Below, in pieces: positions 2,602 through 5,482 of a stretch of DNA of 10,026 nt. Numbering within the stretch: the first letter of the stretch is position 1; every line of letters begins with the position of its first letter. Source of the stretch: an uncultured Clostridia bacterium (GTDB lineage: Bacteria > Bacillota > Clostridia > Oscillospirales > Acutalibacteraceae). A program made the translations under genes and the position numbers. The notes beneath the pieces were generated by a model that ran no database searches, was not told where the DNA came from, and was given only the letters and a program-made list of their open reading frames with translations. The DNA lies in NCBI GenBank assembly GCA_947302895.1, contig CAMYWU010000034.1, positions 1-10,026 of the forward strand. Direction: 5' to 3'.

Positions 2602-3072
2602 ATGAGTAAGAAATTAGTTGCGTATTTCTCGGCAGAGGGAACAACCGCACGAAAAGCAGAAATGCTTAAGGAAGCTTCGGGCGCCGATATTTATGAAATT
2701 GAGCCCGAAAAGCCGTATTCCCAGGAAGATATAAACTGGAGAAAACCGCTTTCAAGATGCAACAGGGAATGGATTAAAAAAGCAAAACCCGCCCTTGCAG
2801 ATACTGCGGCAAATATTTCGGAATATGATACAATCTTCCTTGCCTTTCCGATTTGGTATTTCACTGCGCCCCTGATTATAAGAAGCTTTCTTGATGCATA
2901 TGATTTTTCAGGAAAGAAAATTGTTATCTTTGCAACCTCGGGCGGCAGCGATTTCAGCAAAGCTGTTGCTTTCATAAAGGACTACGCCAAAGGCGCAGAG
3001 GTTGTCGAAGGCATTATGCTCAATGATATCAACACCGCAGATGAACTCAAAGAAATAGCAAATATGTTTTAA
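2602..3072 (+). CDS. Small flavodoxin-like protein (probable FMN binding)
   Basis: This 156-aa protein has the short-chain flavodoxin fold pattern: a beta strand LVAYFS followed by the FMN phosphate loop S10-A-E-G-T-T15, then strand DTIFLAFPIWYF (76-87) whose FPIWY corresponds to the family's GxPIWW loop near the flavin ring, and strand KIVIFATSGGS (106-116). The size is typical of stand-alone flavodoxins and of the flavodoxin family proteins common in Clostridia, often annotated as electron carriers or NAD(P)H-dependent oxidoreductases. It has no signal peptide or membrane segment, so it is cytoplasmic. The start is fixed by AGGAG at 2590-2594. It lies 35 bp after the pseudokinase gene with no promoter seen between, and a strong terminator follows, so the two probably form one transcript. 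Its partner and substrate are unknown. Confidence 0.85.
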   Translation: MSKKLVAYFSAEGTTARKAEMLKEASGADIYEIEPEKPYSQEDINWRKPLSRCNREWIKKAKPALADTAANISEYDTIFLAFPIWYFTAPLIIRSFLDAYDFSGKKIVIFATSGGSDFSKAVAFIKDYAKGAEVVEGIMLNDINTADELKEIANMF

Positions 3073-3111: not shown

Positions 3112-3183
3112 ATTTTGCTTCAGCAAAATATATCGCATTTTTCAAGGAAAAATATATCGCATTGCGCTTGCGCAATATATCGC
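3112..3183. repeat. Array of three 7-bp hairpins, each followed by constant ATATCGC
   Basis: Three tandem units of 25, 24 and 23 nt each consist of a perfect 7-bp hairpin plus the same heptamer ATATCGC. Stems are ATTTTGC/GCAAAAT (3112-3129), ATTTTTC/GAAAAAT (3137-3153) and ATTGCGC/GCGCAAT (3161-3176), with loops of 4, 3 and 2 nt; ATATCGC follows at 3130-3136, 3154-3160 and 3177-3183. Stem positions 4, 5 and 6 vary while pairing is kept. A possible inverted remnant of the constant word (TTGATAT) occurs at 3197-3203. It lies just after the flavodoxin terminator, between convergent genes, and has no coding potential. Confidence 0.8.
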
Positions 3184-3203: not shown

Positions 3204-3230
3204 TTCAATTGGGGACAGTCCCCAATTGAA
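3204..3230. repeat. Perfect 13-bp palindrome with GGGGACAGTCCCC core (REP-like)
   Basis: The two arms (3204-3216 and 3218-3230) are exact inverted copies around a single central A, with core GGGGACAGTCCCC flanked by CAATTG-type sequence. No T-run follows on either strand, so it is not a standard terminator. The core resembles short dispersed palindromes found in many bacteria and sometimes associated with REP-associated tyrosine transposases; this link is recalled knowledge and no such transposase gene is in the window. Confidence 0.7.
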
Positions 3231-3267: not shown

Positions 3268-3304
3268 AAAACGACAAAGGGGACAGACACCTTTGTCGTT
3301 TTTT
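3268..3304. terminator. 13-bp inverted repeat with GGGGACAG, possible bidirectional terminator
   Basis: AAAACGACAAAGG (3268-3280) pairs perfectly with CCTTTGTCGTTTT (3290-3302) around a 9-nt loop GGACAGACA. T-rich ends on both strands (six T at 3299-3304; four T then GC on the minus strand) would suit termination in either direction, including of leftward recG transcripts. It shares GGGGACAG with the palindrome at 3204-3230, so it may equally be a REP-like element that acts as a terminator. Confidence 0.6.
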
Positions 3305-3312
3305 AAATAGCT

Positions 3313-3480
3313 ATGAATTGATGCTGCGCATCATGAATTGGCGATGCCATGAATTTTCGCTTTGCTCCATGAATTGAATTGCTTATATTAATGCCGCAGG
3401 CAATTCATGACCGTAGGTCAATTCGTGCATTTATGCAATTCGTGCGACCTGTCGCAATTCATTGTTGTGCAGTGCACAAC
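3313..3480. repeat. Large inverted array of ATGAATTG/CAATTCRT words separated by mini-hairpins
   Basis: On the left are four direct copies of ATGAATTG (3313, 3333, 3349 as ATGAATTT, 3369). On the right are four inverted copies, CAATTCAT or CAATTCGT (3401, 3419, 3436, 3455). The gaps between copies are mostly small perfect palindromes of different sequence: GATGC/GCATC (3320-3332), GGC/GCC (3340-3348), TGACC/GGTCA (3408-3420), GCAT/ATGC (3427-3436), GCGAC/GTCGC (3444-3455), and last GTTGTGC/GCACAAC (3464-3480), which touches the recG stop codon. The centre has GAATTGC (3376-3382) facing GCAATTC (3400-3406). The word spacing is 16-20 nt. As single-stranded nucleic acid it could form a long stem with side hairpins. 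It has no open frame and no T-run. Confidence 0.8.
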
Positions 3481-4379
3481 TAATACTCTGCTTTTCTGAA
3501 CATATCGCTGATTTGCTCGCAGAGCAGGGGATATTTATCAAGTTTAGGGTCGTCGGCGAGCATTTGTTTTGCGCATGCCTGACATTCCATAAGAGTATCC
3601 ATATCCTCAAGCATATCCGCAATAACGAGATTCGGAAGTCCGTGCTGGCGCTTGCCGAAGAAATCACCGGGGCCCCTTGTTTTGAGGTCGTAATCGGCGA
3701 TTTTGAAGCCGTCGTTTGTTTCCTTCATCAGTTCAAGGCGGTTCTTTGAGCTTTCGCCCTTGCTGTCGGATACAAGTATGCAGTAGCTCTGCTCGCTGCC
3801 TCTGCCGACTCTGCCCCGAAGCTGATGAAGCTGTGAAAGCCCGAAGCGCTCGGCGTTTTCAATAAGCATAATTGTTGCATTCGGAACGTCAACTCCAACC
3901 TCAACAACCGTTGTTGAAACAAGAATCTGCGTTTGTCCGCTCGCAAAGGATTGCATAACCAAATCCTTATCCTTTGCCTTCATTTTGCCGTGGAGAAGCG
4001 CAAGATTGTATCCCTCAAAATGCTTTGTTGAAAGCTCCTCGGCATACTGGGTCGCAGAGATTAATTCGCTTTCGCTTTCCTCAACAAGGGGGCAAACGAT
4101 ATATGCCTGCCTGCCCTCGTCAACATTTTTCTTAATGAAGGCATAAATTCTTTTGTGGTAGCTTGTATCAACAACATCGGTTCTGATTGCCTTTCTGCCT
4201 GCCGGAAGCTCGTCAAGAATGCTCAAATCAAGGTCGCCGTAGATAATCAGACCGAGGGTTCTCGGAATTGGAGTTGCGCTCATAACCATTAAATGCGGTG
4301 AAGCGCTCTTCATAGCAAGGCTTGCTCTCTGTTCAACGCCGAAACGGTGTTGCTCATCGGTTATAACAAGCGCAAGATT
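3480..4379 (-). CDS. recG: RecG C-terminal fragment (DEQH box to C-terminus)
   Basis: This frame is open from the codon after a TGA at 4380-4382. It starts NLALVITDEQHRFGVEQRA, with the DEQH box at 4347-4358, followed by MSATPIPRTL, VCPLVEES, LLHGKM, TTVVEVGVDVPNA and the RecG/Mfd hallmark QLHQLRGRVGRG, then the RecG C-terminal TRGPGDFFGKRQHG. The first ATG is at 4313 (277 aa), inside the domain and without a good ribosome binding site, so independent translation is doubtful. Confidence 0.82.
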   Translation of the reverse strand, partial: NLALVITDEQHRFGVEQRASLAMKSASPHLMVMSATPIPRTLGLIIYGDLDLSILDELPAGRKAIRTDVVDTSYHKRIYAFIKKNVDEGRQAYIVCPLVEESESELISATQYAEELSTKHFEGYNLALLHGKMKAKDKDLVMQSFASGQTQILVSTTVVEVGVDVPNATIMLIENAERFGLSQLHQLRGRVGRGSEQSYCILVSDSKGESSKNRLELMKETNDGFKIADYDLKTRGPGDFFGKRQHGLPNLVIADMLEDMDTLMECQACAKQMLADDPKLDKYPLLCEQISDMFRKAEY

Positions 4380-5482
4380 TCAACATCGTTTTGAATAAGC
4401 GCATGGGTTCCGATAACCAAATCTATCTCGCCCGTCATCAGCGCTTCTTTAATTTCACGCTTTTCCTTGGCTTTTGTTGAGCCTGTCAGAACGGCAATTT
4501 TCATATCTTCGCCCTCAAAGAGCTTTGAAAGCGAGTCAAAATGCTGAAAAGCGAGTATCTCGGTGGGCGCCATCATTGCCGCCTGATAGCCGTTTTTAAC
4601 AGCGGAAAAAATTGCCGCTGCCGCAACTGCGGTTTTTCCCGAGCCAACATCGCCCTGAATGAGCCTGTTCATTGTGCTATTGCTCTGCATATCGCAAATG
4701 CAATCGGCAATGGCGTTTTTCTGAGCGTTTGTTGGGGTAAAGGGGAGCAGGGAGAAAAACTCCTGAGTATAATCCTTTTCTAAAACAAAATTATTTGTTG
4801 TTTCCTTTTTGCCCTTTAGCTTCATCAAGCCGAGCTGCAGGGTTAACAGCTCTTCAAAAATCAGCCTGCGGCGTGCGGTTTCAATATTCTTTTTATTATC
4901 GGGAAAATGAATTTGCCTGATTGCAAAATCAAGCGAGCAAAGGTTGTATTTTGCTCTTATTTCATTATCAAGCGTATCCTCGAAATATTCAAATTTATCA
5001 AGCGCCGTTTTAACAACCTTTGAATTAAGGCTTTCGGTTGCGCTGTATATAGGGTGAATGCCCTGGGCGCTCTCAGCCTTTTCAATTTGCGGAGAACTCA
5101 TAAATGCGCCCGTGAAGCTCTTTTCAACCTTGCCGAAAAGAATGTATTCATCAAAGGTTCTGAGAGCCTTTGCAAGGTATTTATTGTTGAAAATGGTAAC
5201 GTGGATAACGCTCTGCCCGTCGGAAAAATTGCATTTATAAAGGGTTAAGCCCTTTCGTATAAGGCTCTCCTTAACGGGCGTTATCATTGTTGCTTTAATT
5301 GCAACATTCTCGTTTTCGGGAGCATCAACAATGGTGGAGCAGTTGTTCCAGTCCTGATATTTTCTTGGATAAAAATGAATTAAATCCGCAACCGAAAAAA
5401 TGCCCAGCTTGTTGAATAGCCGGGCTCTTTTTTCTCCAACGCCTTTTATATACTGAATATTAAAATCGCTGATGTTTTCCAT
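4361..5482 (-). CDS. recG: RecG N-terminal fragment (wedge domain and Walker A)
   Basis: This 373-codon frame covers the RecG N-terminus and first half of helicase lobe 1. Visible parts are a helix-hairpin-helix-like start (YIKGVGEKRARLF, 11-23), LIHFYPRKYQDW typical of RecG (34-45), the OB/wedge domain (about 60-135), an FPD linker (193-195), Walker A GDVGSGKT (277-284), MAPTEILAFQH (304-314) and IGTHALIQ (357-364). It ends with five out-of-frame residues (ILRLL) after E368. Confidence 0.85.
   Translation of the reverse strand: MENISDFNIQYIKGVGEKRARLFNKLGIFSVADLIHFYPRKYQDWNNCSTIVDAPENENVAIKATMITPVKESLIRKGLTLYKCNFSDGQSVIHVTIFNNKYLAKALRTFDEYILFGKVEKSFTGAFMSSPQIEKAESAQGIHPIYSATESLNSKVVKTALDKFEYFEDTLDNEIRAKYNLCSLDFAIRQIHFPDNKKNIETARRRLIFEELLTLQLGLMKLKGKKETTNNFVLEKDYTQEFFSLLPFTPTNAQKNAIADCICDMQSNSTMNRLIQGDVGSGKTAVAAAAIFSAVKNGYQAAMMAPTEILAFQHFDSLSKLFEGEDMKIAVLTGSTKAKEKREIKEALMTGEIDLVIGTHALIQNDVEILRLL

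Follow-up and report, generated by a model that had tools for sequence, protein, structure and literature searches.

A hairpin-spaced word array at the recG stop codon, probably a gene-less copy of a mobile element that carries a 23S rRNA-IVP gene

The window is the whole stretch of DNA that was analysed, 10,026 nt from an uncultured Clostridia bacterium. It contains a flavodoxin gene and recG, and the 407-nt gap between these two genes houses several small elements (Table 1). One of them is an array of short words that ends at the recG stop codon. Four words on the left side of the array face four inverted CAATTCRT words on the right, as the preliminary description of this DNA had it, although only three of the left words are ATGAATTG and the other is ATGAATTT. 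The starts of the words within each side are 16-20 nt apart. The same description took nearly every gap for a small perfect palindrome; 6 of the 7 gaps are indeed perfect hairpins (3-5 pairs), whereas the seventh is a non-palindromic core that is common to other copies of the array. The outer hairpin (17 nt, 8 pairs, 1-nt loop) has one base in common with the recG stop codon, as described. Along the minus strand, in the direction of recG, the stop codon is followed by the outer hairpin, the AATGAATTG words, the centre, the core, and lastly the CAATTCAT words. Since its ORF is partial, recG scores below the full-length cut-off of the RecG models. The gene is split into two ORFs (3480-4313 and 4361-5482), either by an assembly error or by a real break.

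Table 1. Features of the flavodoxin-recG interval and its flanking genes (positions within the window)
Feature	Position	Strand	Remarks
Flavodoxin gene	2602-3072	+	Neighbour across the gap from recG
Second array, word ATATCGC	3112-3183	+	Three perfect hairpin spacers: 3112-3129, 3137-3153, 3161-3176
Word-hairpin array, ATGAATTG	3313-3463	-	Canonical reading AATGAATTG ... CAATTCAT; 77, 80, and 88% identity to the three tandem units on contig C27 of the same genome
Plus-strand words	3313-3376	+	ATGAATTG at 3313, 3333, and 3369; ATGAATTT at 3349; hairpin gaps 3320-3332, 3340-3348
Core GGAGCAAAGCGAAA	3355-3368	-	Sole non-palindromic gap; last base deviates from the GAGYRNAGCGAG pattern of other copies
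Centre	3369-3408	.	Flip of word orientation; ATGAATTGAATTGC ... GCCGCAGGCAATTCAT on the plus strand; hairpin 3393-3401
Inverted words CAATTCRT	3401-3462	+	Words at 3401, 3419, 3436, and 3455; hairpin gaps 3409-3419, 3427-3436, 3444-3455
Outer hairpin GTTGTGCA-C-TGCACAAC	3464-3480	-	At the recG stop codon, one base in common
recG, 3' part	3480-4313	-	Host gene, touched by the element at its stop; RecG models, best E 7.4e-128

Neither ATGAATTG nor CAATTCAT occurs in exact form elsewhere in the window. The commonest 7-mer in the window has 6 occurrences against a shuffle mean of 2.5, and the maximum among 2,000 shuffles is also 6. Against Rfam, the window produces no match that attains a family's gathering score. 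As a single sequence, the RNA of the array folds in a mildly unusual way (z = -1.87; 9 of 200 shuffles fold equally well); such folding is weak evidence, and it is the family data that carry the point. The ATATCGC array lies outside the ATGAATTG element, yet follows the same grammar; arrays that resemble it are present at two loci of another genome (L109 and L140, G069), and no owner gene of the 23S rRNA-IVP kind discussed below was found for it among the loci examined. The window also holds two GGGGAC-type palindromes (3204-3230 and 3268-3302). The one at 3204-3230 almost matches those that flank a RAYT-like gene in the genome G051 (locus L213), and is therefore likely a REP of that system.

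The array at recG belongs to a dispersed, patchily distributed element. The preliminary description had staked its reading on a second copy in the genome, and the organism's own assembly (G000; 254 contigs, 81.6% complete) carries three tandem units on contig C27 that are 77-88% identical to the recG array. The first word of the C27 array begins about 11 nt past the stop codon of V-ATPase subunit D. With the C27 array as query, 13 of 98 genomes (the own one among them) in 7 of 33 genera gave matches; copy numbers are lower bounds because at most six candidates were scored per genome. A strict pattern of three words is matched by 7 of 80 same-genus genomes, again including the own genome, and its reversed control by none of the 80; the species G002 alone has 26 overlapping hits. 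In G002, four copies about 150 nt long are near-identical while their outer flanks differ, and in two of them a further, shared palindrome encloses the array. When these four were compared by eye for target-site duplications, the one candidate was ATAGTGCATAGT on both sides of a single copy, a direct repeat that is itself heptad-like. At V-ATPase D, the G000 and G002 copies also have an outer hairpin ahead of AATGAATTG (by eye). Among 35 ATGAATTG array places examined, four overlap an ORF call (L369 and L370 seem to be a single locus present on two contigs). Decayed coding sequence was rejected as an origin, the arrays being multi-copy and mostly intergenic. In a viral collection, 21 contig stretches match the three-word pattern; on reading the matches, eight are hairpin-spaced ATGAATTG stretches (L417, L420 weakly, L422, L423, L424, L425, L430, and L431), and the others are unrelated tandem repeats.

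Across the family the words are constant and the hairpins change, with their pairing preserved. From 172 distinct contexts in the loci then collected, 110 distinct spacers between RTGAATTG words were drawn, 89 of which are fully self-complementary. Pairing averages 3.87 positions per spacer; after right halves had been exchanged among spacers of equal length (1,000 sets), it averages 1.87 (sd 0.11, highest 2.31).

Empty and occupied alleles of the same site can be compared directly. At the end of recG, the comparison of the 3' boundary that the preliminary description had proposed finds the array in none of the 16 closest relatives (of 80). Among 13 V-ATPase D loci, ATGAATTG arrays are present in two (G000 and G002) and a remnant in one (G051), and ten are without. 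The junction of infB and rbfA was read in the best 30 of 78 rbfA-bearing genomes, with infB assigned by eye. It is near-empty in 16 of the 30 (-1 to 40 nt, though some short gaps may be remnants, such as L403) and contains 61-491 nt in the other 14. Two of these long junctions hold an IVP gene between AATTCGG arrays, 11 hold gene-less word arrays (by eye, of several different words), and one (L394) has no clear array. The infB-rbfA inserts begin no more than a few nucleotides from the stop codon and finish before the start of the next gene, and the recG array sits likewise, as do the ATGAATTG arrays at the V-ATPase D stop codon in two species; this location may come from selection rather than from targeting. 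An inserted element bounded by the gene, as the preliminary description had suggested, is supported by the other copies in the own genome and in other species and by the absence of the array at the recG end of the closest relatives.

The arrays are linked to genes of one protein family. Two ATGAATTG arrays in G002 enclose an ORF of 121 aa at distances of 11 and 14 nt, and this ORF belongs to PF05635 (23S_rRNA_IVP). Arrays of ATGAATTG adjoin IVP genes in three species, G002 (L134, on both sides), G016 (L304), and G006 (L299), and at each of these loci the word array flanks its cognate IVP gene. In the own genome (81.6% complete), no IVP gene with ATGAATTG in its flanks turned up. That genome has seven IVP genes, six of which were scored; their commonest flank words differ from ATGAATTG, and in three of the six these are weakly repeated (3-4 times). 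A search of the same genus gave 97 IVP matches in 40 of 80 genomes, including all seven pattern-positive ones and G029, an IVP-bearing genome with array matches in the 98-genome search. IVP genes are thus present in 7 of 7 pattern-positive genomes and in 33 of the 73 others, which have IVP genes without hits to the ATGAATTG pattern (Fisher p 0.006, with genomes that are not independent of each other).

The association between IVP genes and repeated words extends well beyond ATGAATTG. A phylum-wide search matched 45 of 249 genomes, from which 29 loci and 30 ORFs were taken. After removal of short flanks, short domains, and duplicates, 109 IVP loci were available: 67 from 74 ORFs of the genus (L134 and 70 loci from the 97 matches), 28 from the 30 phylum ORFs, and 14 from 26 plasmid records. 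Controls were 275 genes from the loci of recG relatives. In autocorrelation, both flanks of IVP genes show peaks at lags of 7, 14, and 21, with matches of 0.31-0.49; the controls have no such peaks (0.26-0.28). A local array with lag-7 identity of at least 0.6 in 42 nt is present at 72 of the 109 IVP loci (40/67 genus, 19/28 phylum, 13/14 plasmid) compared to 8 of the 275 controls; lags of 5, 6, 8, and 9 give at most three in any IVP set and at most five in controls. The 37 loci that fail this heptad test are partly hairpin arrays and partly without an array by eye (e.g., L330, L342, L346, and L348). Complementarity between upstream and downstream flanks exceeds the 95th percentile of 150 sampled controls at 77 of the 109 loci (43/67, 20/28, and 14/14), and that of flanks swapped within each set at 64 (32/67, 20/28, and 12/14), although swapped flanks between IVP loci also yield some high complementarity (highest 38). 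IVP flanks carry word arrays, mostly of 7-nt words and often inverted upstream versus downstream.

The core GAGYRNAGCGAG is present in 19 of the 67 genus IVP flanks (one of which, L302, looks like chance) compared to 2 of 275 controls, and in none of the 28 phylum or 14 plasmid loci. Several heptad elements of the genus share a motif like TTGTYYGAGCGAAGCGAGTAACC near their words, similar to the core of the ATGAATTG arrays. Heptads seen by eye include AATTCGT in Dolichospermum and Nostoc, GTCGGAA in Nostoc, and TAGTGAT in Bernardetia, and the plasmid IVP genes are hosted by Cyanobacteriota, Bacteroidota, Spirochaetota, Chloroflexota, and Bacillota. On one Nostoc plasmid (L361), a heptad-flanked IVP gene is lodged between cas2 and cas1. 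IVP genes with inverted words also sit within structured RNAs, at four loci within 23S rRNA and at two within RNase P RNA. The latter (L341 and L344, positions 1229-2003) combine an IVP gene with inverted heptads and come from two same-phylum genomes of one family. At the one of these that was aligned, the insert sits in a hairpin loop, which we take to be P12.

Words and proteins have diverged together. A tree of 92 IVPs was built, 20 of them without a label for array type; it has few columns, and long branches meet in it. In this tree, 16 of the 18 IVPs labelled as hairpin-type, among them those with ATGAATTG, fall into one clade of 26 rows (98/88; 10 unlabelled), and this clade is nested within the heptad IVPs. 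The two that fall elsewhere, L321 and L288, are palindromic heptads miscounted as hairpins; counting them, the label needs three changes on the 92-row tree. Within the 26-row clade, five word groups (21 rows) need four changes, which is the minimum, compared to a shuffled mean of 9.5 with none of 200 shuffles as low, a clustering that near-copies among the rows help. The words follow IVP subclades, with L305, which has a different word, falling among the ATGAATTG IVPs. Three polar residues are invariant in all 92 IVPs (N46, E49, and E72). In 22 IVPs that include other phyla, Q36, S43, E50, and E73 are invariant and N47 nearly so (full-length numbering, one higher). IVPs match the solved structures 2rld and 2gsc, and we know of no catalytic activity for the family.

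The reading that best accounts for these data, with a probability that we put at roughly 0.74, is that the recG array represents the non-autonomous form of a mobile element, which at full length has a single gene for a four-helix-bundle protein of PF05635/TIGR02436 (23S rRNA-IVP). Behind it stand a family with many copies, hairpins that covary, linkage to IVP genes, the co-divergence of words and proteins, and occupied and near-empty versions of one site. A non-autonomous transposable element remnant was among the possibilities named in the preliminary description, and the dispersed copies support it; its assignment to an owner gene of the 23S rRNA-IVP family is newly proposed here.

A regulatory reading would make the arrays and heptad words cis-acting or mRNA-processing sites (translation control, 3'-end stabilisers, or RNase III substrates), with IVP as an RNA-binding regulator or a hitch-hiker and with dispersal as a secondary matter. 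It fits the mostly intergenic location of the arrays. Excerpts of two papers add that heptads upstream of start codons in Beggiatoaceae have been read as possible translational control (PMC4679880) and that the intervening sequence (IVS) RNA is excised from 23S rRNA by RNase III (PMC4990558). This reading is nevertheless improbable in view of sister species that lack arrays at the same genes (recG and infB-rbfA, as above), of one site that carries different words in different species, and of tandem or near-identical copies at different genes. The preliminary description had likewise offered a protein-binding site or an mRNA 3'-end stabiliser; either may exist as a secondary effect, but explains neither the patchy distribution, nor the tandem copies, nor the copies beside IVP genes. 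We give somewhat less credence still to the array as a MITE that belongs to an ordinary transposon of the DDE or HUH kind (REP/RAYT included), with an unrecognised transposase and with IVP genes as passengers. The ends of the array are inverted relative to each other (AATGAATTG / CAATTCATT, by eye), as the terminal inverted repeats of a MITE would be, and RAYT-like Y1 genes are present in G000, G002, G051, and G016; the one at L213 matches a REP-associated transposase model (E 6.4e-21, 74.8 bits, cut-off 80). Yet at none of 22 RAYT-like loci do ATGAATTG-type words number three or more over a distance of about 0.9 kb, and 21 of the 22 have GGGGAC/GGGGTC palindromes or halves of them. Arrays are present in G029 and G101 (74% complete) with no Y1_Tnp match in either genome, and the tracking of IVP subclades by the words also speaks against such a MITE. 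The transposases compared were of the Y1 type, and the ORF between the two G002 arrays is an IVP. RAYT/REP was ruled out as owner of the ATGAATTG arrays, none of the RAYT-like loci being flanked by them.

The least probable of the alternatives is movement of IVP elements by way of RNA, in which a reverse transcriptase would act in trans and IVP would play the part that Avd has in diversity-generating retroelements. Among four scanned IVPs, one (L341) gives a hit to the Avd model NF033474 that stays under the cut-off of 80 (E 2.2e-5, 24.7 bits), and PF05635 is linked to Avd in an excerpt of PMC10053308. RVT_1, however, is found in only one of eight array-bearing same-genus genomes (G051) and in none of G000, G002, G006, G016, G029, G057, and G101; of the negative genomes, G057 and G029 are 96-97% complete and the others 73-90%. 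A reverse transcriptase in trans is thus unlikely to be obligatory, since none was found in seven of the eight array genomes, several of which are incomplete. As a needed partner it is not supported by co-occurrence.

For the IVP element, a mechanism can be proposed. Full elements have word arrays that flank the IVP gene or sit directly upstream of it, with words that at most of the loci read are 7-nt tandem repeats, often inverted between flanks; in one derived IVP clade, freely varying mini-hairpins separate the words (ATGAATTG, ATGAAAT, AGTTATA, and others). We infer that IVP is the mover of the arrays: the protein would recognise its own word array as a folded nucleic acid and promote its copying into new sites, and gene-less arrays would be moved by it in trans. 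IVP may work on single strands in their folded state, with the joining left to host replication or repair. Insertions would persist where they are harmless, in the interval between a stop codon and the next gene and in the loops of structured RNAs. The perfect hairpin arms could be kept by template switching within the palindrome or by selection for the fold.

A wider proposition, for which the balance is about even, is that IVP genes define widespread single-gene mobile elements without a recognised transposase. The four-helix-bundle protein, with its invariant polar residues, would recognise a lineage-specific word, grow and copy inverted arrays of it, and leave gene-less arrays behind in intergenic DNA, rRNA, and RNase P RNA. 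The heptanucleotide repeats of cyanobacteria (STRRs), the TAACTGA repeats of Beggiatoaceae, and the intervening sequences of rRNA would be branches of this group, and the recG array a derived, hairpin-spaced branch. To our knowledge, both the heptad repeats of bacterial intergenic DNA and the S23/IVP proteins have gone unexplained for decades. The flank data tie the two together by a link that is testable, and IVP, still named after rRNA in databases, gains a likely role. A code that relates IVP residues to the word is suggested, like that of RAYT and REP. Strange hairpin arrays that would otherwise be taken for unique structures receive an explanation.

Several known systems share parts of this design. 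REP/BIME elements are small intergenic palindromes in mosaic arrays with one owner gene family; they differ from the arrays described here in that the RAYT-like genes accompany GGGGAC palindromes, not ATGAATTG. BOX elements of Streptococcus are modular intergenic repeats with a variable number of modules. The name STRR belongs to the heptanucleotide repeats of cyanobacteria, whose history reportedly goes back to Mazel 1990 and, on rnpB, to Vioque 1997. Heptanucleotide repeats of Nostoc, Xanthomonas, and Beggiatoaceae are dispersed intergenic 7-nt tandem words, and those of Xanthomonas also occur as inverted pairs (excerpts of PMC4692102 and PMC4679880). Heptamers of Xanthomonas and Nostoc are treated in PMC4692102, and for the TAACTGA repeats a repeat-binding protein has been suggested as a possible mobile element (PMC4679880); neither of these two papers contains the terms S23 or helix bundle. 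Inverted heptads also stand on either side of several IVP genes on Nostoc plasmids. In the window array, in contrast, the words are 8 nt long and the hairpin spacers about 8-12 nt; the unit of 16-20 nt with a hairpin spacer is not a tandem 7-nt repeat, and the array is related to STRRs only through the nested IVP tree.

The protein family itself appears in several contexts, as far as excerpts of the sources go: in rRNA insertions of CPR bacteria (PMC11270868), among the associations of CRISPR adaptation modules (PMC10910872), and, as four-helix-bundle genes, among strain-specific genes (PMC8700078). Among the matches listed in a literature search that left subscription papers mostly outside, none connects IVP genes with heptad or hairpin arrays in their flanks at sites other than rRNA. 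Avd of diversity-generating retroelements is a distantly related four-helix-bundle protein (excerpt of PMC10053308), from whose elements the present ones differ in the scarcity of RVT_1 (1 of 8 array genomes). The 23S rRNA IVS with an S23/IVP ORF (in Coxiella, Leptospira, and others) has the same protein family and terminal inverted repeats as the IVP elements here, with short tandem words beside the ORF, and four of the IVP loci here are likewise inside 23S rRNA. In Coxiella, GACAGAT heptamers adjoin the IVS ORF, the termini are inverted, RNase III excises the IVS, and an origin as remnants of transposition has been proposed, with S23p stated to have no known function (excerpts of PMC4990558). 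In contrast to these, the recG copy is intergenic, in the flavodoxin-recG interval rather than in an rRNA helix, lacks an ORF, and has variable hairpins between its words, and most of the IVP loci described here lie outside rRNA.
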